Of a DNA stretch of 64,000 bases, positions 11,940 to 35,481 are shown piece after piece (position 1 is the first letter of the stretch; every line of letters starts with the position of its first letter). The stretch lies in NCBI GenBank assembly GCA_014804695.1, contig JAAUZJ010000024.1, positions 64,105 to 128,104 on the forward strand, read 5' to 3'. The position numbers were made by a program, and so were the translations under genes. The notes below the pieces were generated by a model, which worked only from the letters and a program-made list of their open reading frames with translations, had not been told where the DNA came from and did no database searches. This DNA comes from Lachnospiraceae bacterium (lineage in GTDB: Bacteria; Bacillota; Clostridia; Lachnospirales; Lachnospiraceae).

Positions 11940-13814
11940 TCAACCACTGGTATATTGCTTTTTCAGATACGCTACCGTACTCTCTGGGCAGAGTGTTTCA
12001 ACAATATTCCAATTCTTTTCCTCTAAAGCTTTCCTCACTAATGTTGCGCTAATAATGGCCCCCCCCTTCTCATCACAAGTCACTCTCGGTATCTCAACGA
12101 CAGCAATCCCATATTCAGGCAAAATACGCTTCATTGTCTCGTTATATGATTTGGTCACTTCATCAAATGGTTCCTCTCCCACGAACCGATATTGAATTCC
12201 CAAATTTCTGGCTACAACCTCACCAAAAATACGGATATCATAATCCATCTCTTCTATAACTTGTACTGTTTCTTTTTCAAAGTACTGAGCAAAAGTATCT
12301 TTTGATAAAATATATTTCCCGGACGGAACAACATGTACACCAACTAAATCCAAAACTCCCTGTTCCACCATCCTAAACCTGTCCTGAAATGAAAAATACG
12401 ATTTATCTTCCTCTACAACAAACAGATACAATTTATCCACTCTGCTCAATGCCTGTTCTATTAAATATCGATGCCCTTTGGTAAAAGGATTACAATTCAT
12501 GACAATTGCCCCGATCATAGGCCTGTTCGTTTCTTTGCACAATCCATATTGGGCAAAATATTCCATAAAATATTCATGTACGTCCCAACTAATATAATAA
12601 TCTTGTATTTTTTCAGGCACACTGAAATTTCTCGAAACCTCCAGTACTCTCTCCTTACAAAAATCTCTATAGATCCTCTCTGCGATTTTTTGGTTAACGA
12701 TATGATTACAATGCAATGGATGATTAATCAGATTATCTGTCAGAAATGGCATCTCTAAAAATACCTCTGTCAAATCTCCCTGAAAAAAAACATTCCGCGA
12801 CATTTTATCTATCTCCGGTTTTTTTATACACCAGATGATCACAATGTCATTTTCTGAAAGTTCTTCCTCAAACATACGCCCATAACATAAATCAGGATTA
12901 TACATCCCCTTATTCAATACTTTCCATTCCGTGTAATGATCCTCATTCAAACAATTCTGCAAATAATAAGCAATTGTAGATTCATCTTTATTATATCCCC
13001 CTACTATAATACATGGACCAAACATAATAATCCTCCGGTCTGCGCCGACCGGATTATTTGACGTAATACGGTATCCATCTCTAAAATGATAGTATTTTCC
13101 ATCCATATCAAGAAAAGTTGTAATTCCGTTCCTCACCACAGGCCTGCAAAGATCCATTTCGGATATCATAGTCTCGACTATACCTGTTTCATAATTTAAC
13201 TGATAAAAATTTCTCCACTCTTCATTTGAAAGCCCCAGTGGGTCAGAACATATCCCGCCATCTGCTTTTTCCCTGCGTTTTCTCAATATCTGTATTTCTT
13301 CCTCACTCAAATGCTCCATTACTTCTTTATTTGAATAGCTATAAAGCAAGACCCTTGCCTTTGTCTTACATACAAACCTCTCTATCTCCTGCATATGCCA
13401 TGCACTTGTCCTGACATATTTTAATGTGCGCCTTTGTTTACTTCTGAATTTTCCTTCCTTTTCATATCTTATAACCCCTGTCAATTCATTCCCATCTGTC
13501 ACTACAGGTATTTCATTGATAGTCTCTCTACGTTTAAAAAATTCTAACGCCATATGATAGTCAATCTTTTTTAGGAATATATATTGCTGATTGATTTTTA
13601 ACTCCTGTTCATTTCTCTCATAAAATCGTTCCAGATCCCCAATAGAACATACACCCAGCATTTTTCCCGCCTTATGAATGTACAGAACCTCATCTTCATA
13701 ATGCATGAAGTGATAATAGGCCACATCTGGCAAATCTAAAATATCCTCCAACTCATAAACAGATGTCATATCTTTTTTAGAAAGAAAAACAAGATCAGCT
13801 TCTTTTATATCCAT
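11940..13814 (-). CDS. CBS-like + SGNH-like + citrate-lyase-ligase-like cytidylyltransferase (624 aa, copy 2)
   Basis: Three parts can be seen. Residues about 10-120 look like a CBS pair (MLGVCSIGDLERFY and NEIPVVTDGNELTGVIRYEK). Residues about 240-400 resemble an SGNH hydrolase, but the block I serine is cysteine (MFGPCIIVGG); block V is HPLHCNHIVNQKIAE. From about residue 435 on lies a nucleotidyltransferase domain like the C-terminal half of citrate lyase ligase CitC, with NCNPFTKGH and ISATLVRKAL near the end. It probably activates a phosphorylated or acyl substrate with a nucleotide. The paralog at 16967-18844 has the same plan. The start codon overlaps the end of the interrupted SGNH gene by 20 bases. 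The overall function is unknown. Confidence 0.78.
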   Translation of the reverse strand: MDIKEADLVFLSKKDMTSVYELEDILDLPDVAYYHFMHYEDEVLYIHKAGKMLGVCSIGDLERFYERNEQELKINQQYIFLKKIDYHMALEFFKRRETINEIPVVTDGNELTGVIRYEKEGKFRSKQRRTLKYVRTSAWHMQEIERFVCKTKARVLLYSYSNKEVMEHLSEEEIQILRKRREKADGGICSDPLGLSNEEWRNFYQLNYETGIVETMISEMDLCRPVVRNGITTFLDMDGKYYHFRDGYRITSNNPVGADRRIIMFGPCIIVGGYNKDESTIAYYLQNCLNEDHYTEWKVLNKGMYNPDLCYGRMFEEELSENDIVIIWCIKKPEIDKMSRNVFFQGDLTEVFLEMPFLTDNLINHPLHCNHIVNQKIAERIYRDFCKERVLEVSRNFSVPEKIQDYYISWDVHEYFMEYFAQYGLCKETNRPMIGAIVMNCNPFTKGHRYLIEQALSRVDKLYLFVVEEDKSYFSFQDRFRMVEQGVLDLVGVHVVPSGKYILSKDTFAQYFEKETVQVIEEMDYDIRIFGEVVARNLGIQYRFVGEEPFDEVTKSYNETMKRILPEYGIAVVEIPRVTCDEKGGAIISATLVRKALEEKNWNIVETLCPESTVAYLKKQYTSG

Positions 13815-15180
13815 CTTTCATGCTCATTCCCTTCTGTCGGTTATCTAAATTAATTTCTGATAATATTATTTTTTTAATTTCTCTTGCTATTATTTGATTT
13901 CCCTTTTCCCAAACATGGCATATATCCATATAAATATCGTTTTCCCCATCGAAGACGTTTGACAGATCATAAATATAATCAGGTAGTTCCGGTGTCAACG
14001 CCATGTATTTTCGAAAGGATTCTTTTACCAGTTTTCTTCCTCTGTGACTTTGCATAGAAATTAATATGTTCTTTTCTTTTATTGTTTTTTCTTCCTTACT
14101 GCTAAGACACGGCTGACAAAAACTAAAAAATCTTATTTTTCTTTCACTAGCTATCGCGTACATTGTCCGTATGTTGGACAACCAATTATTAAATATATTC
14201 TGCGACGTCATAATCCCTGTGCACACATGATTTTCATCCTCATCTATAAAATCATTCTCTATTCGCTCTCTGGCATAATCAAAAAGTAACTTTGCATAAC
14301 CAAAAGCAAATGGATATTGCTCAATGTTATTTTCTTCAACTTCCGTATCTACAAGAAAACCAGCAAAATCAAAATCCATCAATTTTAAATATTTGGCAAA
14401 TTCTTTTTCAATATTACTATTCCCATAGATATATACCTTTTTATCTACAAATAAATTAAACATCCAAAAATTCGCAAGCGAAAAGATGCTTTTTCGAACA
14501 CCTTCATCCATATAAGTTATTCCATTCCGAAAATTATTACTCTCCAAACTGTAATGAAATCTATTCTCGCAGATTTCCCTAATACTCTCATCAAACGATT
14601 TCCATTTTTCCATAGCTTCCACAATGGTAACATTCTCTGTCAATTTTCCTAATCTATCCAGCGTATATACGGGCAGTCCGCATTTCATCATCCCAGCTAA
14701 CTTTTCATTAGAATCCACAAAACATTGTACTTGCATCCCACTGTCTGACAATATTTTATATACAGTTTCTCCTGTCACCCCACAGCCCCCAATAACAACA
14801 TATTCCGTGTTTATATCCGGATTCAGAATTCGAAGCTTTTGTCCTTTGGCAGATTTATCGATATCCGAGGCTACAAGGTATGGATTATAAAAGACAACAG
14901 AAAGTTCTTTATTCAAAGAATCGGCATCAACAATTCTTTTATTATACATTTTTAAGCCGAACAAAGACTCCGCATTAGTAGCAAATCAATCGACATACAC
15001 ATTTTTCTTTATTAAATGATTAAACATCAACTGCGCATACCTATGATCTTCATAAGAATCACTTATCCAAATATATTTTGCCAAATTACTATACACTAAT
15101 GGGTTCAAAACCAAAAACTCTTTTGCTATCATACCTATACACACAATCCTTTTTTCATTTATTATCTGTTGTTTCACCAT
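13795..15180 (-). pseudogene. SGNH/Rossmann protein interrupted by an in-frame TGA (copy 2)
   Basis: A homolog of the intact gene at 15232-16965, split by one in-frame stop. Codons from the ATG at 15180 read MVKQQIINEKRIVCIGMIAK and end IKKNVYVD before TGA (14986-14988). The same frame then continues FATNAESLFGLKMYNK to the stop at 13795; the downstream part has only a weak TTG start. Two Rossmann-like modules are seen (YVVIGGCGVTGETVYKIL and KVYIYGNSNIEKEFAKYL). The C-terminal end keeps the SGNH block V-like MDICHVWEKGNQIIA, but the GGSTS nucleophile block of the intact paralog is missing. It is likely a decaying duplicate, although the downstream part could still be translated as a shorter protein. 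Confidence 0.75.
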
Positions 15181-15216
15181 GGCATCTTCGAAAGTTATCT
15201 ATAGTAATGTTGCCAC

Positions 15217-15250
15217 CATCTTTCTTTTAGATTAGCTTCTTCTATATCCA
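15217..15250 (-). repeat. Remnant of a CBS/SGNH/cytidylyltransferase gene start
   Basis: After the SGNH gene ends (GGYRRS) the minus strand reads GTGGATATAGAAGAAGCTAA, nearly the same as the junction at 13800-13815, where the SGNH copy ends (DGYKRS) and the 624-aa gene starts ATGGATATAAAAGAAGCTGA. The second reading here gives VDIEEANL against MDIKEADL, then closes after ten more codons. It marks where a further copy of the large gene once began. Confidence 0.55.
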
Positions 15251-16965
15251 CCTTTCATTCCCTCCTGAATATACTGAAAAACAATATCCGCAAGCATCTC
15301 ATTTCCTTTATTGGAATAATGGCAGTAATCAATATACATTCCCTTTTCCGCATCAAATCTGTCAATAAGGTTTATAAAAATATCCGACATTTCATTTTGG
15401 GCTTTTTCTCTATAAATCCTGGTATTTTCTAACATATCTCTTTTTTCATGCATCGTAGTTTCAAATAAAGTCGTAGCAGGCTTTGCAATATTGCTTGGTT
15501 GCAGAAAACTGTAAAATTTCGCTCCATAGAACTCTGAAATCATTTTCATTATTTTGGTATTCCTGTACCAGAAATCATACAAAGGCTCTTCACTATGGAC
15601 ACCGCTTTCATACTCCTTCCCCGGTGCCAATGCATTTATCCAGTCAATGAATGTTGTAACACAGAACTGATTATTCGTTCTCCCCTTTTGAGCTATATTG
15701 TTCACACCACTCATACTAATAATATAATCAGGTTTCAAATACGGTCCATCCCGCAGCAAACGAAGCAACTCCTGTACAATATCATATCCACATGCAGAAC
15801 CGTTATATACAGTCACGCTATATCCGGCATTATTAAGCATTTTATAGAACCGATATGGCCAGGACAATGGCCGGTAATGTCCATCTGTCGATGTAGAACC
15901 GCCTAATATTAATATTTTTAAATCTGTTTCCTGATTGTTTCCATAAACTTCATACCCTTGCTGTCGTCCATTACCGATTTCGACATGCCCCACTAAGCAA
16001 TCAGTCAGGATTTTCATCTGGTTTTTAAATTCCGAAGCTTTCGAATAAATAGCAGTATAATTATGATCTTCCATGGAAAATCCCATTTGATCTAATATTT
16101 CACAAACATTTTGTGATTTTTGACGATTCCGTTCAGCAATAATAACCATTATGTTTTTAACATCTTCATATGCTAATTCATAAATGTTCTTGATACCCTT
16201 TTCTTCTATTTCTTCTTCATATACTTTTCCGCACACGGAAATATCATATTTTCCCAATATATTTTCTATCAATTGAGAATCTTCGTTATCATTCCCATAT
16301 AGCCAGATTTCTTTTCCCTCAGTGCATGCCTTATGAATAACCTGAAACAGATCTCCCTGTTCACTCCAAAACTCAGGCAAAAATTCATCTATATATTTTA
16401 CCAGCCTGCATTTCTCTATTTTTCCAAGCATTTCTTCCTGATATCTGTTTACCTTGGCTGCTATGATAATCGCCGTTTTGGAATCTTCCCGCAATTCCTC
16501 TATAGCATGTACTTCTAAGCCATTCCAAGTGTCCTGTTTCTTCTCCGTAACATAAACTGCCTCTATCGCAATTCCCCTTTGGCACAATAACTGATAAACT
16601 TCTTCTCCTCTCTCACCAATGCCATATAACAGTACCCTTTTATCTTTCAGTTCATAGTCTACATCTAATATTTCATTACTATAGAATACCTTCGTTTCCG
16701 GGAACTCCCCTTGTATCTCCGCCTTCGATTTACATGAATGAATAATAATTATATCTTTATTTCCGAACAGGGTATTCCCGCTCACAATTGGCCGGTTCAT
16801 AAAGTCAGAACCAACATATCTGCCAGATGGATCCACAAATCCGCTTACATTTATTCCACGATATGCCAAATCCGTAAAAACATTCACAGAATCTCTATTT
16901 ATTCCATATAGATAAATATTCTTATCCTGATATTCTTTCGAAAGCGTATACAATATTTTTAACAT
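15232..16965 (-). CDS. SGNH/GDSL hydrolase with three tandem Rossmann-like modules (577 aa, copy 1)
   Basis: Numbered from the MRRNDM reading five codons upstream, the C-terminal half is a complete SGNH esterase/acyltransferase-like domain. Block I is ILGGSTSTDG (about 358-367), a glycine-rich NGSACGYD follows, block III is SMSGVNNI and block V is YIDYCHYSNKGNEML. Ahead of it lie three Rossmann-like modules: IYLYGINRD (about 22-30), RVLLYGIGERGEEVY (115-129) and IWLYGNDNEDSQLI (225-238). A role in adding or removing an acyl group on the glycan is inferred. The ATG at 16965 is preferred because AGGAG lies seven bases before it. It follows the stop of the upstream gene by one base, so translation is probably coupled. 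Confidence 0.82.
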   Translation of the reverse strand: MLKILYTLSKEYQDKNIYLYGINRDSVNVFTDLAYRGINVSGFVDPSGRYVGSDFMNRPIVSGNTLFGNKDIIIIHSCKSKAEIQGEFPETKVFYSNEILDVDYELKDKRVLLYGIGERGEEVYQLLCQRGIAIEAVYVTEKKQDTWNGLEVHAIEELREDSKTAIIIAAKVNRYQEEMLGKIEKCRLVKYIDEFLPEFWSEQGDLFQVIHKACTEGKEIWLYGNDNEDSQLIENILGKYDISVCGKVYEEEIEEKGIKNIYELAYEDVKNIMVIIAERNRQKSQNVCEILDQMGFSMEDHNYTAIYSKASEFKNQMKILTDCLVGHVEIGNGRQQGYEVYGNNQETDLKILILGGSTSTDGHYRPLSWPYRFYKMLNNAGYSVTVYNGSACGYDIVQELLRLLRDGPYLKPDYIISMSGVNNIAQKGRTNNQFCVTTFIDWINALAPGKEYESGVHSEEPLYDFWYRNTKIMKMISEFYGAKFYSFLQPSNIAKPATTLFETTMHEKRDMLENTRIYREKAQNEMSDIFINLIDRFDAEKGMYIDYCHYSNKGNEMLADIVFQYIQEGMKGGYRRS

Positions 16966-16966
16966 G

Positions 16967-18844
16967 TCATTTCTCCTCATCGAACATATTTTTCAGATAC
17001 AATACCGTACTTTCCGGGCAAAGCGTTTCAATCATCTGCCAGTTCTTCTCTTCTAATGCCTTTCTGACCAACGTTGCACTAATAACATTTTCATTGGCTT
17101 CATCGTACATCACTCTTGGGATTTCAACGACAGCAACGCTGTATTCCGGCAAAATACGCTTCATTGTTTCATTATATGCTTTTGTTACTCTGTCAAACGG
17201 CTCTTCTCCTACAAAACGATATTTAATTCCCAACTCCTTTGCCACGACCTCACCGAAAATACGAATATCATAATCCATATTTTCTACGACCTGCACATTT
17301 TCCTTTTCAAAATACTGGGCAAAAGTATCTTTTGATAAAATATATTTTCCGGAGGGAATGACCCGGACATCCGATAAATCCCCAACCCCCCGCTGTACCA
17401 TCCTAAACCTGTCCTGAAAGGCAAAATATGACTTATCTTCTTCAACGACAAAGACATACAACTTATCTACTCTGTCCAATGCTTGTTCGATCAAATATCT
17501 GTGCCCTTTCGTAAACGGATTACAATTCATAATAATGGCTCCCTTTACAAGACTATCATCTTCCCTGTACAGTCCGTATTGACCGTAATATTCTATAAAA
17601 TACTCATGCACATCCCAGTTAATATAATAGTCCTGTATTTTCTCAGGCAGCTTAAAACCCTCAGTATCATTTACCGAATCGTTTAATATCTCTTTCGCAC
17701 AGATATCCTGATATATACTCTCTGCTATCTTTTGATTCGCTATGTAATTGCAATGCATCGGAGAATCTGCCAGATAGTCCGTTAATGGCTTTATCTCTAA
17801 AAAAACATCTGTCAAATTTCTTTCTAAAAGTAAATTGCTTAAATTCTTTTCTGATAGCCGCAAGAAATCCACATATCCAATAATTACAATATCATCTTTC
17901 GTCAATTCCTCTGTAAACATCCGGGCATAGCAATAATCCGGCCCGAATAAACCCATATTTAACACTTTACATTGCATATCATGATTCTCATTCAATTTAC
18001 TTTGTAAATAAAATGGAATTGTCTGATCATCTCTGCAGTATGCTCCCATAAAAAAGCATGGACCATAAAAATAAATTCTTCTGTTTGCATTTGAGGGGGG
18101 ATTTGGTGTAACGCGAAAACCATTTCTAAAATGATAACATTTTCCTTTTATATCAGGAAAAAATGCCACGCCATTTTCTATCCTTGGGACACATTGTTCC
18201 ATCTCCGCTTTCATTGCATCAACAATGCCTTCTTCGTATTCATCCTTCCAGAATCTCTTCCACTCTTCATCCGAAAGTCCGCGCCAATTGATATCATCTG
18301 CTTTTTCCTTACGTTCTTTCAATATTTGTCTTTCCGATTCACTTAATCGCTCTACAATCTCTTTATCGGAAATAGTATACAAAAAAACTTTCGCTTTTGT
18401 CTTATTGATAAATCGATAGATTTCTTTTTTATACCATAATTTCTTCCTCGCTTTTTTCAACTTCGTTCTCTGCGCATTTCTTACCGACTCTTCTTTTTCA
18501 TACCTTATAATACCCAGCAATTCATTGTCCTCTGTAAGAACAGGTATTTCATTTACAGTCGCCACACGTTCAAAGAAAGCTGCCGCATTATAATAATCAA
18601 TACCCTTTAGATATGTATATTTCCGGTTTATTTTCAGTTCATCTCTATCCTCCCTGTAAAAACGCTCCAAATCCCCAATCGAACAAACTCCAAGCATCTT
18701 CCCTTCATGTAAAATATACAGCACTTCTTCTCCATAATGCATAAAATGATCATATGCCTTCTCAGATAAATCTCGGATTTCTTCTAGCTCATAAACTGAT
18801 GTCATATTCTCTTTGTCCAGAAAAAGCAACTTTTCTACATCCAT
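16967..18844 (-). CDS. CBS-like + SGNH-like + citrate-lyase-ligase-like cytidylyltransferase (625 aa, copy 1)
   Basis: Paralog of the 624-aa protein at 11940-13814, alike from end to end. The CBS-like part has MLGVCSIGDLERFY and NEIPVLTEDNELLGIIRYEK. The SGNH-like part has FYGPCFFMGAY, again cysteine where serine is expected, and SPMHCNYIANQKIAE. The nucleotidyltransferase domain has NCNPFTKGHRYLIEQAL, FVVEEDKSYF and SATLVRKAL. Both copies keep the nucleotide-binding motif, so both may be active. The neighbour upstream is a TIM-barrel/Rossmann protein and downstream an SGNH protein one base away. Which substrate is activated cannot be told; glycerol-phosphate- or acyl-like acceptors are guesses. 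Confidence 0.78.
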   Translation of the reverse strand: MDVEKLLFLDKENMTSVYELEEIRDLSEKAYDHFMHYGEEVLYILHEGKMLGVCSIGDLERFYREDRDELKINRKYTYLKGIDYYNAAAFFERVATVNEIPVLTEDNELLGIIRYEKEESVRNAQRTKLKKARKKLWYKKEIYRFINKTKAKVFLYTISDKEIVERLSESERQILKERKEKADDINWRGLSDEEWKRFWKDEYEEGIVDAMKAEMEQCVPRIENGVAFFPDIKGKCYHFRNGFRVTPNPPSNANRRIYFYGPCFFMGAYCRDDQTIPFYLQSKLNENHDMQCKVLNMGLFGPDYCYARMFTEELTKDDIVIIGYVDFLRLSEKNLSNLLLERNLTDVFLEIKPLTDYLADSPMHCNYIANQKIAESIYQDICAKEILNDSVNDTEGFKLPEKIQDYYINWDVHEYFIEYYGQYGLYREDDSLVKGAIIMNCNPFTKGHRYLIEQALDRVDKLYVFVVEEDKSYFAFQDRFRMVQRGVGDLSDVRVIPSGKYILSKDTFAQYFEKENVQVVENMDYDIRIFGEVVAKELGIKYRFVGEEPFDRVTKAYNETMKRILPEYSVAVVEIPRVMYDEANENVISATLVRKALEEKNWQMIETLCPESTVLYLKNMFDEEK

Positions 18845-18870
18845 TACATATTCCTCTTATCTCCAATATG

Positions 18871-20094
18871 TTATTTGCAAACGGAACATTCCGGCAAATA
18901 TTCATCGCTATATGTTTCAATATTTTCAATTCCCATAGACTTTAGCTGCCCTGCAATCTCTGAATAAAACGTATTGCAAATAATAACGGCGCATTCCGGC
19001 GGCAGTTCTTTCAAAACCTCCGGTGCTTTTATCTCCAAGCCGCAGATTTCCCTTCCCCAGAGCTTTGAATCATTATCACAGACAAATAACGGCGGATATT
19101 CCTTTCCATAAAATTTCATATAATTTCTGCACATATTTCCTGCGCCAAAAAGCACTCTGACCGGATATCCCTTTATATTTTTTTCCATTTCAATCTGCCA
19201 TCGAAAATATTCGGCCGTAGATTTAATGACCGGATACATCTGCTGACGCAGTAAATGAGAAAATCCGCCAAGCGTATCTCCCGCGGCTATAATCAACATT
19301 CCGTCAAATGCAATCCTTCTTAACCCTCTTATCAAGCTTGGCCAGTCCGTACTCATACCACCCTCGTTTCTCCCTGTAAACGGAAGTCGGCTGGCTTCAT
19401 GAATTCCATCACATTCTCTTATCAAAACGGCTTTCAATCTATGACCAAGCGTAGCTGCCATTTCTCCCATATTTTGTCCGCATAAATTACAAACAGCCGT
19501 ATCAAGACAATAGCCGAAGATTTCTTTACCCAGCTCATTATTGAGTTCATCAATCCACTCCGACGCAGTCACAGCATCTGCGCATACTCCTCTGACAAGA
19601 TGGCCATTTATGTTGTTACACTGATTTTCTATGAGAATACAGACATTCTTTTCTGCTGCTATTCTACCCAATTCATAGTAATAGCGGTGATTTTCTTTCC
19701 ATTCATCCACTTTGGAAACACCTGCAAACAAAGGCTGAATAATGATATTCCTTCTTCCGCTATTTCCGCAATTCATAATACATTCTTGTCCTATCTGCAA
19801 CATCAATGCATTCAGATCAGACCTTTTCGTGTCCCATTTCAAATGCGGTGCACGCATAATCTCAATTTGAATGGTGCCCTTGCTGCAGTAATGCATCAAT
19901 TTCTCATAGCGTCCTCTCATTTCTTTTATATCAAGAGAAGAACCATTTTCCCCATGTGTCTCAAGATGTCCCTTTGCATAAAATATAGAAAGGTCAAGCA
20001 TCATTTCCCCAAATCCCGCATTGACCATATTATTTATACTCTTCTCCAGTCTGGATAAATCTAACAGACCCTTTGATGAATAACAGACCTGCAT
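18871..20094 (-). CDS. TIM-barrel isomerase-like protein with C-terminal Rossmann-like module (407 aa)
   Basis: Residues 1-300 form a xylose-isomerase-like TIM barrel, a distant paralog of the protein at 10945-11892: compare ILIENQCNNINGHLV with LCIENLYDNIGGHLV, and ATLGHRLKAVLI with TTLGHRLKVLHI. Several ligand positions differ (GYCLDTAVCNL in place of CFDTGHANL, and LIRECDG in place of HIHDNDG), so metal binding or catalysis may be altered. Residues about 305-400 are a Rossmann-like module (VLFGAGNMCRNYMKFYG, VCDNDSKLWG, EVLKEL). It could be a degenerate or re-purposed isomerase. It follows the four-part TagD-like gene by 13 bases. Confidence 0.75.
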   Translation of the reverse strand: MQVCYSSKGLLDLSRLEKSINNMVNAGFGEMMLDLSIFYAKGHLETHGENGSSLDIKEMRGRYEKLMHYCSKGTIQIEIMRAPHLKWDTKRSDLNALMLQIGQECIMNCGNSGRRNIIIQPLFAGVSKVDEWKENHRYYYELGRIAAEKNVCILIENQCNNINGHLVRGVCADAVTASEWIDELNNELGKEIFGYCLDTAVCNLCGQNMGEMAATLGHRLKAVLIRECDGIHEASRLPFTGRNEGGMSTDWPSLIRGLRRIAFDGMLIIAAGDTLGGFSHLLRQQMYPVIKSTAEYFRWQIEMEKNIKGYPVRVLFGAGNMCRNYMKFYGKEYPPLFVCDNDSKLWGREICGLEIKAPEVLKELPPECAVIICNTFYSEIAGQLKSMGIENIETYSDEYLPECSVCK

Positions 20095-20107
20095 TTTACG
20101 TCCTCTC

Positions 20108-22441: not shown

Positions 22442-22476
22442 TTGATGCCTATCTCCTTACTTACATTGGAATCATA

Positions 22477-23835: not shown

Positions 23836-23850
23836 TCATTACCGCCTTCT

Positions 23851-25029
23851 TCATACCTGCACATCACAAGGTCTTCCCCAAATGATCTTATCTGCCGGGA
23901 CCGCATATGCAGTTAATTCGGATTTAATCTCTTGAAAAATAAGTTCATTCTTAACCGCTACCAATAAATAATCATATTCCAGTTCACGGACCTGTTCCAC
24001 CGGCCTTACTTCTAATCCTTCCGCACATAGCTTTTCCCACTCTTTATCTATCCATGCACACACGTCGATATTCTGACTTGCTTTCAGAAATTCATAATAA
24101 TCACGCCCTACTACTCCGGCTCCATATAAAATGATACGTTTTACTCCTTTTAAAAAAACAGATGTATCCAATACATATTTATTACGCAAAAGATTATTTT
24201 CAGAAAGTCCCAGTTTCCAGCGTAAGCCTGTCTGTATACACCGAAGGACATAATAATCGAGTTGTTCCTTTAAAACTTTATCTTCCTTTTCAAATAAATG
24301 ACTCATATAACGATAAAAATAATTTACTTTTGCAAGATACATATCGTCTTTAGAACGAACAAGCCCATTCTCCCTCTGACAATAATAATATTCTATATCA
24401 TCTATAAAAATCGCCGTTATATCCTGCATAAGGCATGTCCAGACCAATGCCCTGTCTTCATCATATTGTATCTGGTCCCCTATTTTATTCATGGTATCCA
24501 CAAGCAAATTCCTGCGATACAATTTGGCAAATATAAATGGCATGATTCCATAATCACAATTCCTGCCATAATAAAATAAATTTCTAACAGCATCGGCCGG
24601 GTTCTTATATATACCCGCCTCAATAAGATTTTTTCTTTCTATCTTCCTGCCATCCGGATATATCATGTATACATTGGAAATTACCATATCCGCGCAGCTG
24701 TCTTCTGCTGCTTCCTTCAACAATTCAAGCAGGCGGCTCCCAATCCAGTCGTCAGAATCCACAAAAGTGATATAGTCGCCTGTACTGGCCAGAAGCCCTG
24801 CCTTTCTGGCCGCATTGTTTCCCTGATTTTCCTGTTCTATGATCCGTATCCGATCATCCATTTCCGCATACTTACGACATACGGAAAGCGAATGATCAGT
24901 GGAACCATCATCCACCAAAATGATCTCTGTATTCTTATACGACTGCATCCGTATACTTTCTATGCATCTTGGCAGATAATCCGCCGTATTATATATTGGG
25001 ACAATAATAGAAATCCGAAATTCCTGCAT
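23851..25029 (-). CDS. Family 2 glycosyltransferase with C-terminal Rossmann-like module (392 aa)
   Basis: GT-A family 2 enzyme: ISIIVPIYNTADYLPRC, ILVDDGSTDHSLSVC and the DxD-type YITFVDSDDWIGS. The end of the protein is a clear Rossmann-like module (KRIILYGAGVVGRDYYEFL, AWIDKEWEKL, YLLVAVKNE). The ATG at 25029 is preferred to a GTG four codons earlier because GAGG lies six bases before it. The order of domains matches the neighbours at 22477 and 29064. The donor sugar is not known. Confidence 0.86.
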   Translation of the reverse strand: MQEFRISIIVPIYNTADYLPRCIESIRMQSYKNTEIILVDDGSTDHSLSVCRKYAEMDDRIRIIEQENQGNNAARKAGLLASTGDYITFVDSDDWIGSRLLELLKEAAEDSCADMVISNVYMIYPDGRKIERKNLIEAGIYKNPADAVRNLFYYGRNCDYGIMPFIFAKLYRRNLLVDTMNKIGDQIQYDEDRALVWTCLMQDITAIFIDDIEYYYCQRENGLVRSKDDMYLAKVNYFYRYMSHLFEKEDKVLKEQLDYYVLRCIQTGLRWKLGLSENNLLRNKYVLDTSVFLKGVKRIILYGAGVVGRDYYEFLKASQNIDVCAWIDKEWEKLCAEGLEVRPVEQVRELEYDYLLVAVKNELIFQEIKSELTAYAVPADKIIWGRPCDVQV

Positions 25030-25071
25030 GGCCTTCCTCACAAATCATCTCTATTCTGTATAAAAAAATTC

Positions 25072-26703: not shown

Positions 26704-26749
26704 AGGAATCCCCCCTCCCGTCTGAACTGCAATATTTATATGCCATATC

Positions 26750-27865
26750 TCATCCGTCTATTAGCCATTCACTACTTTCCGGCTGATTGGAAACTTTCCA
26801 TGAAAACCGTTCTTCCCTGCCACAATATCTGCACTGCTCAATTGGGTCTGTATCCAACGCCCTCAATGCTTTACGTAAATCTGTTTTATCATCATAGATA
26901 TCCACCCCTTCTTCAAAATGAAGCGGTATTTCATATCGTGTAAAAAAGTGATTTCCCAAAGCAGAAAAAGGGCACTTATAAATTTTTCCGTTTCGCAGGA
27001 AATGGCATCTGAATTCCCTACATTCCGTCTGTGCTTTATAAGGATCATTTTTTCCGCTCAAATCTATATTCTTTCCAAATGTCTCTACATGTCCACGAAA
27101 CTCATACCGAATACCGAATTTTTCCAACGTATCAAGAATCTTATCCTTCAATTTTGCCGTCGGCGGATATTCCGTTATACTTACAAGTACATCCTCTTCC
27201 TTTATATAAGACAGTAGGTCCTCACTCTGTTTTGGAATCAAAAGACCATTGGATACAACAGATATACTGGTCTTTGGCATATACTTCCTCAAACATTCTA
27301 TATACTTGCCAAGCTGCCCGGACAGAAATGCCTCGCCTCCAAGCAGATCGAAATGGGTGATATAAACTTTATTTGATAAATATTGAATATCCTTCTCGAA
27401 AGATTCATATCCGACTGAATCACCTTTCTGAAAAATATTAGAAAAATGACTGCATCCCTTGCAATTCATGTTGCAATAATCAACTACATTCGTCTCCAGT
27501 TTTTTCATAAAAGCTTCTTTATTTTCCAGTTCACCCTTCCATACTATATGGGTATCTTTTAAAATATCTTCCGCCAAATTCAACCGATAGTAATATACTA
27601 CACCATTCACTACGCCACAATTATCTATCTCCATTTCGCATAGTTCCTGCCAGATTTCCTGCCATTCCAATACTGCAACTAAAAGGACATCCATATTATT
27701 TTTATAGCATTTCATATATTCGGATAGTGAAACCACTTTTGTTCCCATAACACTATTGATGCTTTCCGCGTTATGATCGATAAAAATAACTGTATGCTGC
27801 TTTTCCATCAGCCTTTCGCAGATATATGTCCCAAATTTTCCTGCTCCCCATATCGCAATATTCAT
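26750..27865 (-). CDS. Radical-SAM protein with N-terminal Rossmann-like module (371 aa)
   Basis: Residues 1-90 are a Rossmann-like module (MNIAIWGAGKFGTYICERL, FIDHNAES, VLLVAVLEW). The radical-SAM iron-sulphur motif follows at CNMNCKGC, with LLGGEAFLSG as the GGE motif and SVVSNG downstream. Near the C-terminus are CREFRCHFLRNGKIYKCPF and CRYCG, cysteines of a SPASM-like auxiliary region. The reaction is unknown; epimerisation or dehydrogenation of a sugar or polyol is possible. The ATG at 27865 is chosen because GGAGG lies eight bases upstream; an earlier ATG at 27907 would overlap the previous gene. Confidence 0.82.
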   Translation of the reverse strand: MNIAIWGAGKFGTYICERLMEKQHTVIFIDHNAESINSVMGTKVVSLSEYMKCYKNNMDVLLVAVLEWQEIWQELCEMEIDNCGVVNGVVYYYRLNLAEDILKDTHIVWKGELENKEAFMKKLETNVVDYCNMNCKGCSHFSNIFQKGDSVGYESFEKDIQYLSNKVYITHFDLLGGEAFLSGQLGKYIECLRKYMPKTSISVVSNGLLIPKQSEDLLSYIKEEDVLVSITEYPPTAKLKDKILDTLEKFGIRYEFRGHVETFGKNIDLSGKNDPYKAQTECREFRCHFLRNGKIYKCPFSALGNHFFTRYEIPLHFEEGVDIYDDKTDLRKALRALDTDPIEQCRYCGREERFSWKVSNQPESSEWLIDG

Positions 27866-27903
27866 AACATTATCCTCCAAAATCTTATTGATGTATTGCA
27901 AAA

Positions 27904-29067
27904 TCATTTGACGAACTCTTCAAAATATCTTCCGAACCTCTGTATATCCAGTTCAATACACTGATAATCATATTCTTTTAAGCAATTCTCTATTTTTTCT
28001 CTATAGATTTCACTGACGCCAAAAACGAGACTAAATTTTTTGTTTTTGCTTATTTCTGTTAATTCCCTAACTTTCACGCCTTTTAGCTCTAACGGATTAT
28101 TAGATTTACTCGTAACAATTACTGCTGCTATTTGTTCGGTCAGATCAAGAATCGATAATATATCCAGGATATATTTTGCCCTCTGCCCAGCCCCATACAA
28201 ATAGACCGGCATATTTCCTGCCTGATTAAAAGAATCTGAAAAAATATGATAAAAATATCTTTTTTTCTTCTCAATATATTCTTTTCTATTCATCAAACCC
28301 TGGAACCAATTATTATAGCATCCTAAATCTCTATCTTTCAGCATCATAAGCAAATTTGCGGCACATCTGTCATTCACATTATGATATAAATTACAAGCGC
28401 TTAAATTTTCTTTCTGTGAATCTTCTATAGTAATATCTTTCTGAGTTGCTCCCACATAGACAACCGGTATATCATTCATGATTTCACTATATTTTATCCA
28501 CAAATCATCCTGTCCTTCGGCTGCACTGATAATATCCTGCATGACAAACCAGTTATCACTTCCTGCCCCAGGTGGATAAAGTACACCTCCCACTCCAATT
28601 GCACATAAATCTCCTCTGGGCATACCTTTATATTCATCGGGATACCGATCCCACTTCACATACTCCTCTAATCCCGTTTCCTGCCTGAATATCATTCTCA
28701 CTGACCGAGCCGATACCGCACCAGGAAAGCACTCGAACCCTTTCATCAAATCTTCGATCATAGACCGGGCATATATTGTATCATCATCTACTGTAATGAT
28801 TACATCGTCACGATATTCCTGTAAAGCATAATAATACTTCTTATGTGATTTCAAATTTCCCTTTACCCATATAATCCGAAAACCGTGTTTTCCGTTCATT
28901 TCAATTAGAAGCTCAGGAAGATCTGACTCCGCATTCGGAAATTCATCCAAACTCAAATAAAGAAGAATTGCATCTGCCCGTATCGTTTGCTCCAATAGAC
29001 TCTCAACGACTTTATGCACCATTTCTATCCTCTTGGGATACGATGTAAATGAAACGATCACTTTCAT
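27904..29067 (-). CDS. GT-A type glycosyltransferase with C-terminal Rossmann-like module (387 aa)
   Basis: A glycosyltransferase-like protein starting MKVIVSFTSYPKRIEMVHKV, with the metal-binding VIITVDDDTIYARS. Other stretches (DNWFVMQDIISAAEGQDDLW and VYVGATQKDI) are typical of clostridial GT-A enzymes of uncertain class. The C-terminus from about residue 275 is the Rossmann-like module (MPVYLYGAGQRAKYILDIL, SLVFGVSEIY). Its ATG overlaps the stop of the upstream glycosyltransferase by four bases, so translation is coupled. Donor and acceptor are unknown. Confidence 0.8.
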   Translation of the reverse strand: MKVIVSFTSYPKRIEMVHKVVESLLEQTIRADAILLYLSLDEFPNAESDLPELLIEMNGKHGFRIIWVKGNLKSHKKYYYALQEYRDDVIITVDDDTIYARSMIEDLMKGFECFPGAVSARSVRMIFRQETGLEEYVKWDRYPDEYKGMPRGDLCAIGVGGVLYPPGAGSDNWFVMQDIISAAEGQDDLWIKYSEIMNDIPVVYVGATQKDITIEDSQKENLSACNLYHNVNDRCAANLLMMLKDRDLGCYNNWFQGLMNRKEYIEKKKRYFYHIFSDSFNQAGNMPVYLYGAGQRAKYILDILSILDLTEQIAAVIVTSKSNNPLELKGVKVRELTEISKNKKFSLVFGVSEIYREKIENCLKEYDYQCIELDIQRFGRYFEEFVK

Positions 29068-30416
29068 GATTCCAATTCCTCTTCTGTCAGCATTGCAAGA
29101 ACATTTACTAACGTGATTCCGGCATTCCTGACCATATTTTTTATATCCAGATATATTACTTTAGATGCTGTCAAAATACAACCTGCTCTCTCCCATAAAT
29201 CATCCGGTCCTACAATTTCATATCCGCAGACGATCGTACCCTGTTTTTCAGCATCCTTATCCACGACCGCCGATATTTTTATAGAATTTTCATTTAAATA
29301 ATCCAGCAGAGCCCGGCCATAAACCCCTGCTCCCCATAAGATAACTTCCCTATTTTGCATAAGCTTGTCTTTTATCAGTTGGCAGACGATTCTCCCATTT
29401 CTTTTCAAATGAAATTGAAAATACATATCCAAAGTATTAAACCAACCACTTTCATAGGTGTTATGTAAAAAACACTCCAAAATATATCTGTCATAACTGT
29501 CAACTTTCGTATAATACGCTTTTCCATGGTCGATTAGCTTTGCAATCCCTTCCTGATGCAGAAACTGATAAAAATCCTTCCTTCGTTCTGCATTTTTTTC
29601 ATCTCTTACCGCTGCTAATATTTTCGACGTTAAAATATAAAACAAAGAATCCTCCAGATCACAAAGCATATTCCTTTCATTTAACTCTATGACCAGTTTT
29701 TCCATCGCATAATATACACACATGGGGTCTCTGTTCGACGAGATTCGAGACGGTTCAAAATGGTCTCTTGCATAGACCATCACTCTTTCATCGTTCAAAA
29801 TGACTATTTTCTGTGCACAAAAAACAGCCATTTTAGCATAAAATACATCATTACAACAGGTCAGATTCTGAAACTCTATCCGATTATCTTCAATAAACTG
29901 TCTTCTCATCATCTTATCGCAGGGTGAACTGGACCAGTTCGGAAAATCCCTTGGTTTAAAATCCCTTACGGAAAAAGGTTCATTACAATAATACTCCGCA
30001 AAATATTTCGGGCGTTTTACGCTTTTTTTCTCATATATCGATTCACTTGGAACGTGCATATACTCGAACAATACAATATCAGCTTGATATTTTTCCATGG
30101 CCTCATAAGCCTTTTCCAACATCTCCTCTTCGAATATATCATCACCATCCAAAAACAATATATATTTTCCATGGGCATTTTTCAGGCCTTTATTTCTTGA
30201 TACTGCTGCTCCCGAATGTATTTCATTAGATAAGATCTTTATTCTCTTATCCTTTTCTTTAAACTCTAATAATATATTTTTGGTATCATCTGTGGAACAA
30301 TCATCTATACAGATTAACTCAAAATCCACATAGGTTTGCTTTAGAACACTTTCTAATGCTTCCTTTAAATATTTCGCTGCGTTATACAACGGCATAATAA
30401 CTGATATTGTTCCCAT
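29064..30416 (-). CDS. Family 2 glycosyltransferase with C-terminal Rossmann-like module (450 aa)
   Basis: GT-A family 2 enzyme: ISVIMPLYNAAKYLKEAL, ICIDDCSTDDTKNIL and YILFLDGDDIFEEEM. A helical linker leads to a Rossmann-like module in the last 90 residues (REVILWGAGVYGRALLDYL, VVDKDAEKQG, GYEIVGPDDL). The ATG at 30416 is taken as the start; a TTG reading ten codons longer has no better ribosome site. A GGGGAAAGAGG stretch precedes the ATG. It lies 35 bases after the small 118-aa gene and overlaps the next gene by four bases. Confidence 0.86.
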   Translation of the reverse strand: MGTISVIMPLYNAAKYLKEALESVLKQTYVDFELICIDDCSTDDTKNILLEFKEKDKRIKILSNEIHSGAAVSRNKGLKNAHGKYILFLDGDDIFEEEMLEKAYEAMEKYQADIVLFEYMHVPSESIYEKKSVKRPKYFAEYYCNEPFSVRDFKPRDFPNWSSSPCDKMMRRQFIEDNRIEFQNLTCCNDVFYAKMAVFCAQKIVILNDERVMVYARDHFEPSRISSNRDPMCVYYAMEKLVIELNERNMLCDLEDSLFYILTSKILAAVRDEKNAERRKDFYQFLHQEGIAKLIDHGKAYYTKVDSYDRYILECFLHNTYESGWFNTLDMYFQFHLKRNGRIVCQLIKDKLMQNREVILWGAGVYGRALLDYLNENSIKISAVVDKDAEKQGTIVCGYEIVGPDDLWERAGCILTASKVIYLDIKNMVRNAGITLVNVLAMLTEEELES

Positions 30417-30451
30417 ATCCTCTTTCCCCACGTTAATAAAATGCAAACTTT

Positions 30452-30808
30452 CTAAAAATTATAAATATATTTTGGCAGCTTATCCTGCTCATTCAATTTT
30501 TCCCCGGCATTCGCTGCTGTACTTTCGTTATATTCTTTAAACGAATCATATGATATTCTATTTTTCATGGCAGCTACCCCGACTATCTTTTTCACCTGTT
30601 CCATTTCTTCATGATCTTTCCACAACTGATTTAGTTCCTCCATTAACTGTGGAAGAGTTTCAAACCCATATTCTCTTATATATGGCTTCGGATCCATTTC
30701 AATAAAATAACTTTCTTTCTCCTTGTCACTTTTCTGAAATTGATACTGCTGACAATTTGACAGTCCCCATTCCTTTAGCTTTTTCTTTTCAGTTTCATTT
30801 TTATCCAT
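30452..30808 (-). CDS. Hypothetical protein next to the carbamoyltransferase (118 aa)
   Basis: Not recognised. A charged soluble protein with no membrane segment and no cysteine pair. It starts MDKNETEKKKLKEWGLSNCQ; the middle (KPYIREYGFETLPQLMEEL) looks like a small folded helical domain and the ends look disordered. It starts 15 bases after the carbamoyltransferase gene, with an AAGGGATGAG site before the ATG. The position suggests a partner of the carbamoyltransferase or of the next glycosyltransferase, but that is inference from place alone. Confidence 0.65.
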   Translation of the reverse strand: MDKNETEKKKLKEWGLSNCQQYQFQKSDKEKESYFIEMDPKPYIREYGFETLPQLMEELNQLWKDHEEMEQVKKIVGVAAMKNRISYDSFKEYNESTAANAGEKLNEQDKLPKYIYNF

Positions 30809-30823
30809 ATTCTCATCCCTTTC

Positions 30824-32659
30824 CTAATCAAGAGCATATAAATTACGCCAATCCTGTGTTTCAACAAATTCCGGCTGCTCTTCTTTATACAACACGCAAT
30901 TTTCCAGAACCAAAACATCCATATCCGTCCGCATAAAACACTCATATGCGTTCTTTGGCGTACAAACAATGGGTTCCCCCCTAACATTAAAGGATGTATT
31001 TACAATAACACTATATCCTGTTAACTTCTTGAATTCATTCAGCACATGATAGTAATATGGATTACTTTCCTCAGCCACCGTCTGTATACGCGCACTGTAA
31101 TCCACATGCGTCACAGCCGGAATATCTGAACGCTTCTGCTTTACGATTTCAAGCATATTGCCCTGGTACTTTTTCAGATCCTCTTGAACGAAGCTGTCAT
31201 TACAACGCTCTTCTTTCACATTTTCAACAATAAGCATATAGGGGCTTTCATCATCCAACTCAAAATACTCCGATACATCCTCCCTTAGCACGGAAGGCGC
31301 AAAAGGTCTGAATGATTCCCTGTATTTGATTTTCCTGTTCAATTTTACCTGCATGGTTTCAGAGCGTGCATCAGCAATAATACTTCGATTTCCCAACGCT
31401 CTCGGTCCAAACTCCATGCGTCCATGAAAGAGTCCTATCACTTTCTCTCCGGCAAGCAATTCCGCTATTTTTTTAAATATATCATCGCCATACACATGAT
31501 ATGGAAGCTTATTTTCCTTTAAATATTTCTCAATTTCCTCCATGGAATATTCAGGTCCCAGATAACTTCCCTTCTGGGAATCTGTAATTGTTACATTCCG
31601 ATCGATGCATTCGCACTGATACGCCGCATATAACGCACATCCCAAGCTTCCCCCGGCATCACCTGCCGCAGGCTGAATCCATAAATTTTCGAAAATCCCG
31701 CTATTCTTGATTTTTCCGTTAGCCACACAATTTAACGCAACTCCGCCTGCCAGAACAAGATTATCAATACCCTTTCCATACTTTTCTTTTGCATGTTTAA
31801 CCAGCTTTAAAATTATTTCCTCTACCACTTTTTGGGCTGAGGCAGCAATATCCATTTCCCTTTTGGTTATTTCCGTCTCCGGTTCTCTTCTCGGTCCTCC
31901 AAATAAATCGGCAAATTTATCATTTGTCATGGTCCTGCCATACTGATAATCAAAATACTCCATATTCATACAGAAAGAACCATCTTCTTTGATGTCAATT
32001 AACTCTTTTTTAATCAACTCTTCATAAACAGGTTCTCCATATGGCGCCAGGCCCATGAATTTATAATCACCAGAGTTCACCTTAAAACCACAAAAATAAG
32101 TAAAAGCACTATATAATAACCCTAATGAATGAGGAAAATCTATTTTCTCTTTCATGACAATATCTTTTCCACTTCCAACACTGATTGCAGTTGTAGCCCA
32201 TTCCCCAACTCCGTCAAGTGTGATAATGACCGCATTTTCATATGGTGACGGGTAAAATGCAGAAGCAGCATGAGAAATATGATGCTCACACACCATAAAC
32301 TTTCTTTTCTCATTCTCCCCTAATATACTGTCTACAACTTTATGTATCCATATTTTAGCTCCGAACATGGATTCAAAGCTTCTGCCTATGACATCATCAG
32401 AGTCCCCGCCCGCTGCAAGAATATTTTTGATATACCTATCAAGCGTCAGAAAAGGATTATCGTAAAATATGACAATGTCAATATCTTCCGCCGCTATTTT
32501 GCCCTCTTTCAAACAATATGAAATTGCATTCACAGGCATATTGAAGTCATGTTTTATTCTTGTGAACCTCTCTTCCTGCGCTGCTGCAACTATTTTCCCA
32601 TCAATAACCAAACTGGCCGCCGAGTCATGATATAATGCAGATATACCTAAAATTTTCAT
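30824..32659 (-). CDS. NodU/CmcH-family O-carbamoyltransferase (611 aa)
   Basis: Transfers a carbamoyl group from carbamoyl phosphate, via carbamoyl-adenylate, to a hydroxyl of a sugar or related acceptor. Family motifs run through the chain: MKILGISALYHDSAASLV, AAAQEERFTRIKHD, CEHHISHAASAFYPSPYE, VIITLDGVGEW, LVLAGGVALNCVANG, FHGRMEFGPRALGNRSI and NTSFNVRGEPIVCTP. The length of 611 fits the family. In this operon it probably decorates the glycan. It follows the GT4 gene by 21 bases. Confidence 0.92.
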   Translation of the reverse strand: MKILGISALYHDSAASLVIDGKIVAAAQEERFTRIKHDFNMPVNAISYCLKEGKIAAEDIDIVIFYDNPFLTLDRYIKNILAAGGDSDDVIGRSFESMFGAKIWIHKVVDSILGENEKRKFMVCEHHISHAASAFYPSPYENAVIITLDGVGEWATTAISVGSGKDIVMKEKIDFPHSLGLLYSAFTYFCGFKVNSGDYKFMGLAPYGEPVYEELIKKELIDIKEDGSFCMNMEYFDYQYGRTMTNDKFADLFGGPRREPETEITKREMDIAASAQKVVEEIILKLVKHAKEKYGKGIDNLVLAGGVALNCVANGKIKNSGIFENLWIQPAAGDAGGSLGCALYAAYQCECIDRNVTITDSQKGSYLGPEYSMEEIEKYLKENKLPYHVYGDDIFKKIAELLAGEKVIGLFHGRMEFGPRALGNRSIIADARSETMQVKLNRKIKYRESFRPFAPSVLREDVSEYFELDDESPYMLIVENVKEERCNDSFVQEDLKKYQGNMLEIVKQKRSDIPAVTHVDYSARIQTVAEESNPYYYHVLNEFKKLTGYSVIVNTSFNVRGEPIVCTPKNAYECFMRTDMDVLVLENCVLYKEEQPEFVETQDWRNLYALD

Positions 32660-32680
32660 ATTTTTCTCCCTGTATCATCT

Positions 32681-34288
32681 TTAAATATTTTCACACCAAT
32701 CCAATAACTCTGAGAGCATTACAATTGTGTAACTGTATTTTGCTTTCATAAAATCAATAAGTTCCTTTACTTCACCTAGAACAGTCACAACAATTGCATC
32801 AACTTCCGGTAACATTTCTCTCATATCTACGATTTTTATGAGACCATCAGGATCTGTTATTCTCTGATCCATAACATATTCTACTGTAATTCTACTGTTT
32901 TCCAGTTCATCATACAGACAACATCCCAAATATCCCATTCCATAAATTGCTATTGAATAAATTCCTTTTTCAATCAAAGCAGTTTCCAGTGATTTATGTT
33001 CCAGTTTATTACATAGCCAGCGCTGTACAGTTTTCTGAAGCGCCTGTTGCTTTTCGAATCCTCCAGAATCATATACATACTCAGTTTTATCCTGTAAGGA
33101 ACTATATCGATTGTTCAACTTATTCAACAATTCCGCTTTTTGTTCCCTGCCGGAAACTTCATTCCCCTGTGTCAGACCTTCATATACTTTAATAATGTTT
33201 TCCAGATATTTTGCAGCGTCAAACGTATCTACACTATATTGCTGTGCCGCTTTCTGAATTTCCTCATTATTTTCCTGATGCTCTATTGCATATTGCATCA
33301 CTCTTGCCAGATCTTTATAATCTCCCTGTCTGTATAAATAACCTCTACTGCAGTCTTGCCCGATGATTTCTGCCGTTCCACCCGTATCGGCTCCAATCAC
33401 AATACATCCTGCCATCATGGCCTCTATCGTCACTCTTCCCAATGCCTCCATTTTGGAAGCGGTAATAGAATACAGACATTTATCCCTCAACTGCCCCAAA
33501 TCTTTTTTAAAATCCAGAAAATAAATATTACGTTCCAGTCCGTATTTTTTTACATATTTTTTCAGAAGCCAGATGTATTGATAATTTCCGGTTCCCACAA
33601 TATATAGCTGAATATCTGTCCCGTTCTTAATTATTTCATGCGCCGCCTTAACAGCATCAGCCTGACCCTTTTGCGGAGAGATCACGCCTGCAAACATAAA
33701 GCAGTGTCCGTTCTTCGTCTCATAGTTTCTTGACAAAAATCTATCAATGTTCACGCCATTATATATACAAATAGAATCAATTCCATACTTGGTCTTATAA
33801 GCATTTTTTACACAATTGGAAATCGCGATTATTTTATCGCTGCACTCAAACAACTCCCTTTTTAACTCCTTATCCGAGAATTCAAATCCGAAATGCTCTT
33901 CCAACAGTTCTCTTATATGCCATACATGTGGAATATCAGCCATTAAAGCCGCTATTATCCCTACATTACTCACACTGGAATTGGTATGGATCAATTCTAT
34001 TTTTTTCTGCTTTATAATGTCCTGCAGTTTCAAAGCCGCAGCATAATTACTGGCAAAAATCGTATCCATTTCCGCCGTCGTATGTGTACCGATTTTTCTA
34101 TGGTCTGTTTTGAACGGAACAACATAGTATTCAATATCTATTTGCCGTAAGCGTTCTTCAATAATGCCCTCGGAAGGTATGACCACTACAGCACAAATCC
34201 GATTCCTGCTTACTGTCAGCATATCCAACAAAGATTGTGCTGCTCCACCAGCTTCTGATTCATTTATTATGTACAACACATTTATCAT
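32681..34288 (-). CDS. Family 4 glycosyltransferase with C-terminal Rossmann-like module (535 aa)
   Basis: A GT-B family 4 enzyme: INVLYIINESEAGGAAQSLL at the start, FMFAGVISPQKGQADAV before the donor site and the E-x7-E-type RVTIEAMMAGCIVIGADTGG. The last 100 residues are the Rossmann-like module (YSIAIYGMGYLGCCLYDEL, EYVMDQRITDPDG). The ATG at 34288 is chosen over one 22 codons earlier, since it opens with the first strand of the fold, avoids overlap with the upstream gene and has GGGAG ahead of it. It is the first gene, in reading order, that carries the shared module. Confidence 0.86.
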   Translation of the reverse strand: MINVLYIINESEAGGAAQSLLDMLTVSRNRICAVVVIPSEGIIEERLRQIDIEYYVVPFKTDHRKIGTHTTAEMDTIFASNYAAALKLQDIIKQKKIELIHTNSSVSNVGIIAALMADIPHVWHIRELLEEHFGFEFSDKELKRELFECSDKIIAISNCVKNAYKTKYGIDSICIYNGVNIDRFLSRNYETKNGHCFMFAGVISPQKGQADAVKAAHEIIKNGTDIQLYIVGTGNYQYIWLLKKYVKKYGLERNIYFLDFKKDLGQLRDKCLYSITASKMEALGRVTIEAMMAGCIVIGADTGGTAEIIGQDCSRGYLYRQGDYKDLARVMQYAIEHQENNEEIQKAAQQYSVDTFDAAKYLENIIKVYEGLTQGNEVSGREQKAELLNKLNNRYSSLQDKTEYVYDSGGFEKQQALQKTVQRWLCNKLEHKSLETALIEKGIYSIAIYGMGYLGCCLYDELENSRITVEYVMDQRITDPDGLIKIVDMREMLPEVDAIVVTVLGEVKELIDFMKAKYSYTIVMLSELLDWCENI

Positions 34289-35463: not shown

Positions 35464-35481
35464 AATTATCCACCCCGCTTT

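Follow-up and report, generated by a model that had tools for sequence, protein, structure and literature searches.

The window analysed here is a 64,000-nucleotide stretch of a Lachnospiraceae bacterium genome (assembly GCA_014804695.1, contig JAAUZJ010000024.1, forward-strand positions 64,105 to 128,104; contig C24 below). It contains an operon-like run of 27 minus-strand genes (10945..49111), in which the intergenic gaps are 47 nt or less except for one of 267 nt. The distal half of this run comprises 16 open reading frames (ORFs), named here by their lower coordinate, and 11 of them carry a homologous Rossmann-type segment, hereafter the module, in 14 copies. As a preliminary description made from the sequence had claimed, the carriers belong to unrelated classes: Pfam scans and sequence assignments gave glycosyltransferases (GTs) of families GT2 and GT4, a CDP-glycerol phosphotransferase-type protein, a radical SAM protein, a TIM barrel, GDSL/SGNH hydrolases and a methyltransferase-cytidylyltransferase fusion. 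The 14 copies, each of which could be cut out where that description had placed it at a terminus or in the middle of a protein, are as follows.

14554..14811, minus strand: copy 1 of 13795, residues 52-137, found by profile
14155..14445, minus strand: copy 2 of 13795, residues 174-270, degenerate, iterated profile E 1e-4
16678..16926, minus strand: copy 1 of 15232, residues 19-101, loop degenerate, iterated profile E 2e-9
16381..16644, minus strand: copy 2 of 15232, residues 113-200, no strand-2 Asp, found by profile
16042..16317, minus strand: copy 3 of 15232, residues 222-313, not significant alone, with counterparts in related proteins
18901..19170, minus strand: C-terminus of the TIM-barrel protein 18871, found by profile; the copy modelled, with a predicted local distance difference test score (pLDDT) of 94
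20600..20866, minus strand: in 20108, between the methyltransferase-like part and the cytidylyltransferase, found by profile
22531..22809, minus strand: C-terminus of the GT2 protein 22477, found by profile
23872..24144, minus strand: C-terminus of the GT2 protein 23851, found by profile
26290..26595, minus strand: N-terminus of the CDP-glycerol phosphotransferase-type protein 25072, found by profile
27593..27868, minus strand: N-terminus of the radical SAM protein 26750, found by profile
27934..28215, minus strand: C-terminus of the GT2-like protein 27904, V[ST][DE]-type subclass, no strand-2 Asp, found by profile
29088..29354, minus strand: C-terminus of the GT2 protein 29064, found by profile
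32705..32962, minus strand: C-terminus of the GT4 protein 32681, iterated profile E 2e-9

None of the 11 ORFs of the promoter-proximal half (34315 to 49111) matched in the leave-one-out or the iterated profile searches, which bears out the earlier statement that this half lacks the module; in the distal half, profile searches left 10945, 11940, 16967, 30452 and 30824 without it.

When each segment was left out in turn and a profile of the other 13 was run against the 37 ORFs of the window, with sister copies of the same protein kept in, 10 of the 14 segments were recovered at E <= 5e-6. This rules out chance likeness. The weak ones were copy 2 of 13795 (0.02) and copies 1 and 3 of 15232 (0.09 and 0.48), and the segment of 32681 gave no match. 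An iterated profile, run over 31 stretches (the window, six further loci, L002-L007, and 24 stretches that come from 22 genomes of its genus), settled at 295 module copies in 282 ORFs and picked up 13 of the 14 window copies, missing copy 3 of 15232. That copy reached 3.3 bits (E 0.006) when 15232 was searched by itself, and its structure model is of low confidence (pLDDT 48). A recognisable module stands at its place in four of the eight proteins of its SGNH cluster, the counterparts scoring 8.8e-9 in G040, 1.5e-9 and 1.3e-7 in G031, and 2.6e-5 in G052. The window segments are one homologous module. Inspected by eye, 13795-14964 seems to be a paralogue of 15232 and similar SGNH proteins that has lost an internal part: it keeps two module copies and the C-terminal end, but most of the hydrolase core is gone.

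The model of the 18871 module (pLDDT 94) has as its nearest folds 2g6t, the CapD-type 3nkl, the domain of unknown function (DUF) of WbaP, Rex, and the N-domains of the PerB/PglD type. The NAD-binding Rossmann domain of Rex also matches the module profile (5zz5 at 1.7e-7, 2vt2 at 3.7e-7), and 29064 scores above the cut-off of Pfam Methyltransf_14 (25.2 versus 23.5 bits). Like the PglD/NeuD-type N-domain, the module is a small Rossmann domain with a G-x-G/S loop, and it has the fold of the CapD/WbaP-type DUF (PF13727). It belongs to the superfamily of PglD-type N-domains, CapD/WbaP-type DUFs and C-methyltransferase C-terminal domains. Profile and fold thus agree on the kinship proposed earlier, with PglD-like and methyltransferase C-terminal domains, and the structure model and fold comparison, which gave a single fold, rule out that the segments represent several unrelated folds.

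The module differs from each of these relatives. PF13727 is the DUF of large phosphoglycosyl transferases and of PglF/CapD-type dehydratases (PMC10942596; structures 8t53 and 3nkl), and it was absent from the Pfam matches of the modules. In WbaP the DUF follows a membrane helix bundle, whereas the window's module sits on soluble carriers, at the N-terminus, at the C-terminus or internally, and up to three times per protein. Compared with the PglD/NeuD/PerB-type N-domain (PF17836, TIGR03570), the second, uracil-reading Asp is replaced in the modules, and the 11 carriers gave no Pfam match at E <= 0.1 to the left-handed beta-helix acyltransferase part of PglD-type enzymes. C-terminal domains of C-methyltransferases (PF08484; KijD1, MtmC) are also kin, but the window's carriers are not C-methyltransferases by Pfam. 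No Rex-type N-terminal winged helix turned up in the Pfam scans of the carriers, none of which was a search aimed at winged helices. The near fold relative 2g6t, from C. acetobutylicum, is an uncharacterised protein (C2185-like_N, PF22674). A literature search for CAC2185/2G6T gave nothing relevant; we take the CAC2185 region to be flagellar.

In the window's genome the profile gave 13 matches at E <= 0.01, namely the 11 in the run plus one CapD-type and one TrkA-like protein, the last two named from their sequences. Among the 42 GT2 matches of this genome, all four in the run carry the module and none of the 38 elsewhere does (Fisher 9e-6; the Fisher tests count related modules and GT2 matches as independent), which rules out that the module is a normal part of each enzyme family. 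Clustering the carriers of the 31 stretches after masking of the module gave 85 sequence clusters, some of them not separate families, plus two short ORFs. Representatives of 81 clusters (four of the 85 were left out of the scan) and the two short ORFs, 83 in all, gave hits at E <= 1e-5 to 46 Pfam models, which overlap in part. The 25 of these 46 that were listed include Glycos_transf_1, GT2, GT8, GT11, WbsX, RgpF and LicD, as well as FkbM and other methyltransferases, radical SAM, TupA ATP-grasp, DUF1919, DUF4422 and WcbI. The module is C-terminal in 133 of the 295 copies, N-terminal in 107, internal in 53 and alone in two. It also comes and goes within clusters, being present in 72/85, 23/42 (the TIM barrel) and 8/18 members of three of them. 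For 194 of 239 modules, the nearest module in another genome was on the same carrier cluster, against a mean of 26 and a maximum of 41 in 200 shuffles; spread by recent copying inside the operon is thereby ruled out. Judging from these comparisons, the module was fused to its carriers long ago and repeatedly.

Modules are common in the window's genus and scattered beyond it. All 60 genomes of the genus had a match at E <= 1e-3, with at least 10 matches in 39 of them and 36 at most, counts that take in a background of CapD- and TrkA-like proteins. A survey of the family gave a match at E <= 1e-10 in 41 of 150 genomes (149 genera), and one of the phylum a match at E <= 1e-6 in 51 of 149 genomes, many of the latter being single matches in ORFs of about 210-235 codons that we read as Rex. 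Modules were also seen on ORFs of 157, 159 and 163 codons in L108 (G329:C5:1447101-1448089) and L085:15536-16027; these resemble the 32681 module and are possibly near-stand-alone forms.

Over the 295 copies the best conserved positions are G5 (95%), G7 (91%), D29 (83%) and L73 (82%). In 194 modules of less than 50% identity (G 96%, G 89%, D 81%), the canonical nucleotide-site positions have a mean relative entropy of 1.57 bits versus 0.70 bits for other non-core positions (p 0.0002, 20000 permutations), the site and core positions having been chosen after the profile had been inspected. Because the G-x-G-xx-G loop and the acid ending strand 2 are the best conserved non-core positions, a nucleotide or nucleotide-linked ligand is plausible. 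To this extent the earlier suggestion that the modules may bind a common nucleotide-linked intermediate is plausible. A subclass of 26 modules, on several carriers, has a hydrophobic residue followed by S, T or N instead of the acid. Two consecutive Asp residues follow strand 2 in a PglD-type enzyme, the first binding the ribose and the second the uracil (PMC8040287). In the 295 modules the position of this second Asp is occupied by N in 132, S in 51, K and R in 31 each, T in 15, D in 6 and E in 3. Of 21 non-redundant modules that adjoin a phosphotransferase or methyltransferase-cytidylyltransferase part, 19 have Asn there, versus 67 of 207 others, a pattern that rests on two or three lineages.

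Beyond what the preliminary description foresaw, relatives of the module in other genera associate with flagellin loci. Of 40 module-positive genomes from other genera of the family (all 39 other-genus positives of the family survey plus G190 from the phylum survey), 36 have flagellin, versus 7 of 20 module-negative ones (p 2e-5), the latter being the first 20 listed among the 109 family genomes without a match at E <= 1e-10. It was also found in all 20 hand-picked genomes outside the genus with at least two matches in the phylum and family surveys, some of these matches being Rex- or CapD-like and other genomes with as many having been left out (a second genome set took in G277, G278 and further genomes that had two or three matches). 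Among 43 flagellin-positive genomes outside the genus, three of them (G070, G150, G179) from one genus, the best module lay within 25 kb of flagellin in 16 (at most 2.1 expected, P 5e-11), within 50 kb in 23 (at most 4.1 expected) and within 10 kb in four (at most 0.9 expected, P 0.013); draft contigs depress the observed proximity. As a control, Rex-like matches, examined by eye, lay within 50 kb of flagellin in none of five of the same genomes (G070, G143, G150, G179, G196).

Three promoter-proximal genes of the run have homologues in such loci as well.

46586..49111, minus strand: first gene of the run; homologues adjoin flagellin in other genera
45233..46573, minus strand: cytidylyltransferase-Gfo/Idh/MocA fusion; homologue 72% identical in the G223 flagellar locus
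41760..42986, minus strand: CDP-glycerol phosphotransferase-type protein without the module; homologue (42%) in the G223 flagellar locus

Homologues of 46586 (E <= 1e-20) occur in 20 of 67 genomes, all 20 being among the 50 with flagellin, and the best homologue lies within 10 kb of flagellin in nine of the 20 (at most 0.5 expected); two of these genomes (G213, G220) are module-negative, and in four the best match has in-frame stops. Eight module-flagellin neighbourhoods were read, and 46586 homologues stand in four of them. In the G223 locus, the order runs from a gene that matches Flagellin_N weakly through fliD, fliS, flagellin and a GT2 protein to homologues of 46586 (49%) and 45233, a module gene, the 41760 homologue and, farther on, more module genes, including a 26750 homologue (42%) and two PF01973-type proteins with the module. 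PF01973 is, we take it, the Maf domain (Maf-like type). PF01973-type proteins with an N-terminal module in a flagellar locus were seen at L116:3520-4830 and G223:C54:85353-86669, and the 27 ORFs of the window's run gave no PF01973 match, and thus no Maf-type transferase, at E <= 0.1. In G271, a module-rich run begins with homologues of 45233, 44496, 46586 and 41760, and the flagellins of this genome lie on other contigs. The best matches to 20108 there are two separate ORFs, neither of which gave a module match.

The window's run resembles known flagellin glycosylation systems in several respects. Flagellin glycosylation islands consist of soluble cytoplasmic enzymes, and by hydropathy count none of the 27 proteins of the run has two or more predicted transmembrane helices, so that the run has no apparent flippase, polymerase or exporter; the same helix count holds for 276 carriers of at least 150 aa, none of which has two or more. 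Relatives of the head genes adjoin flagellin in other genera, but the window's operon, unlike such islands, is not beside flagellin. In Aeromonas, flagellin receives its glycans while still in the cytoplasm and not yet exported (PMC4065374). In the published model of the C. difficile type A pathway, a cytidylyltransferase makes CDP-threonine and a phosphotransferase puts phosphothreonine on the flagellin glycan, freeing CMP; this locus shares with the window the kinds of steps, namely cytidylyltransferase, methyltransferase, CDP-linked phosphotransferase and glycosyltransferase (PMC10714395). The window's operon is far larger, and the two are likened by the published model of steps, not by the cd0240-cd0244 sequences.

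From these results we give an even chance to the reading that the module is an accessory nucleotide-binding Rossmann module on the soluble enzymes of a flagellin-type glycan pathway, tuning its carriers in response to the donor or product nucleotide. The isolated DUF of WbaP is stabilised by UMP, UDP and UTP and destabilised by UDP-Gal, the whole enzyme is inhibited by UMP with an apparent half-maximal inhibitory concentration of 4.1 uM, and the authors of that work propose a one-size-fits-all regulation (PMC10942596). This regulation, the freeing of CMP in the C. difficile pathway and the similar enzyme set of the window make a sensor of donor or product nucleotides most likely, and by analogy with the WbaP DUF the module is probably such a sensor. 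Each module would hold the pathway's donor or product nucleotide (CMP, or a CDP- or UDP-linked compound), the bound nucleotide would tune the carrier enzyme, presumably allosterically, and the modules together would form a common feedback or donor-retention device for enzymes gathered by no membrane. The acceptor of the window's glycan may be flagellin or another cytosolic protein. The fusion of the module to eleven enzymes, together with the frequent nearness of its relatives in other bacteria to flagellin genes, suggests a shared control or handling device for intracellular sugar decoration.

Several observations weigh against this reading, besides the choice of site positions after the profile had been inspected. 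At least one of the four motif positions is missing in 107 of the 295 modules, including all eight of one carrier cluster, and the Asp that reads the base in PglD-type domains is replaced in the modules (D or E at its place in 9/295). Rex and TrkA match the module profile, so that the ligand may as well be NAD or an adenine nucleotide as a pyrimidine nucleotide. Non-carrier ORFs with at least four predicted transmembrane helices (25 ORFs) occur in 13 of the 31 stretches, so that membrane steps may exist elsewhere. No flagellin lies on contig C24, the six PF00669 matches of this draft genome (55 contigs) being elsewhere. The genus itself shows no comparable closeness, with 50 kb or less between the best module and a flagellin in at least two of 29 genomes (29 of the 60, among the matches listed), and flagellin is present in 60/60 genomes, which makes its presence there uninformative. 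One flagellin match of the window's genome, G000:C51:6-251, runs to the contig end.

A more ambitious version of the sensor, in which most of the distal-half enzymes share a pocket tuned at the base-reading position so that free CMP or UDP produced by the pathway throttles them together, is quite unlikely. It would have Asn serve the CDP-using carriers and other residues the other donors.

It is somewhat unlikely that the module instead completes the active site of its carrier, in the manner of PglD-type acetyltransferases and C-methyltransferases, by gripping the nucleotide moiety of a donor or of an acceptor linked to a nucleotide. Among its fold kin, the N-domain of the PglD-type Pcryo_0637 is a UDP platform (PMC8040287), and PerB, VioB and KijD1 were solved with NDP-sugars or TDP according to the structure titles. 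The prevalence of Asn at the base-reading position beside phosphotransferase and methyltransferase-cytidylyltransferase parts points the same way, but it represents those two or three lineages. Moreover, module-free relatives of carriers exist, 19 of 42 members in the TIM-barrel cluster and, within the same operon, 10945 compared with 18871. GT-A glycosyltransferases, furthermore, have a donor site of their own.

Docking, in which the modules pair mutually and hold the enzymes in one complex, was the other role proposed in the preliminary description, and we consider it unlikely. WbaP dimerises mostly via this kind of domain (PMC10942596, PMC12802240), and here eleven carriers are encoded in one operon with no membrane protein to gather them. 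However, modules on different carriers are no more alike within a genome (0.112, 1599 pairs) than between genomes (0.113, 35245 pairs), the positions outside the core and the nucleotide site are poorly conserved, and the contact in WbaP is a beta-hairpin, of which there is none in the model of the module alone. The docking proposal thus found no support.

Recognition of the acceptor, in which the module would bind flagellin or its chaperone and direct all enzymes to one protein, is very improbable. The modular transferase FlmG is said to have a flagellin-binding part, and the flagellar neighbourhoods and the two module-bearing PF01973-type proteins of G223 would fit such a role, but conservation is concentrated at the nucleotide site, and the carriers of the cytidylyltransferase and radical SAM kinds probably have small molecules as substrates. 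That the modules are leftovers of a nucleotide-binding ancestor, fused to their carriers but now without a function, is scarcely credible: degenerate copies such as those in 13795 and 15232 exist, but the whole motif is kept in 188 of 295 copies, and copies persist with their carriers across genomes (the same-cluster neighbours above).

Some other features of the run and its surroundings were also seen. The run contains paralogous pairs of citrate-lyase-ligase-like (11940-13814 and 16967-18844) and asparagine-synthase-like genes (35482-37377 and 38691-40571), and TIM-barrel paralogues without (10945-11892) and with the module (18871-20094). Just upstream of the run are a short ORF (49464-49946) with a Cas12f1-like TNB match of 5e-5, under its cut-off, and a phage-integrase-family ORF (51256-52029; match 1e-28), which hint that the run came from a mobile element or an island.

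Both the fold and the domains related to it are already known. For the large number of copies in one operon, the variety of the carriers and the association with flagellar loci we found no description in the open-licence PMC literature, nor one of flagellin-glycan loci in motile Lachnospiraceae. The WbaP study calls it puzzling that functionally unrelated glycan enzymes share a WbaP-type domain (PMC10942596). Here that fold recurs on many enzymes of unrelated kinds in the same operon, which allows its role to be studied in one organism over a range of carriers. The module may mark flagellin-glycan loci in motile Lachnospiraceae, and the present results name enzymes for testing. If true, the pathway-wide sensor would extend the WbaP finding to dozens of enzymes and provide a signature for flagellin-glycan islands.

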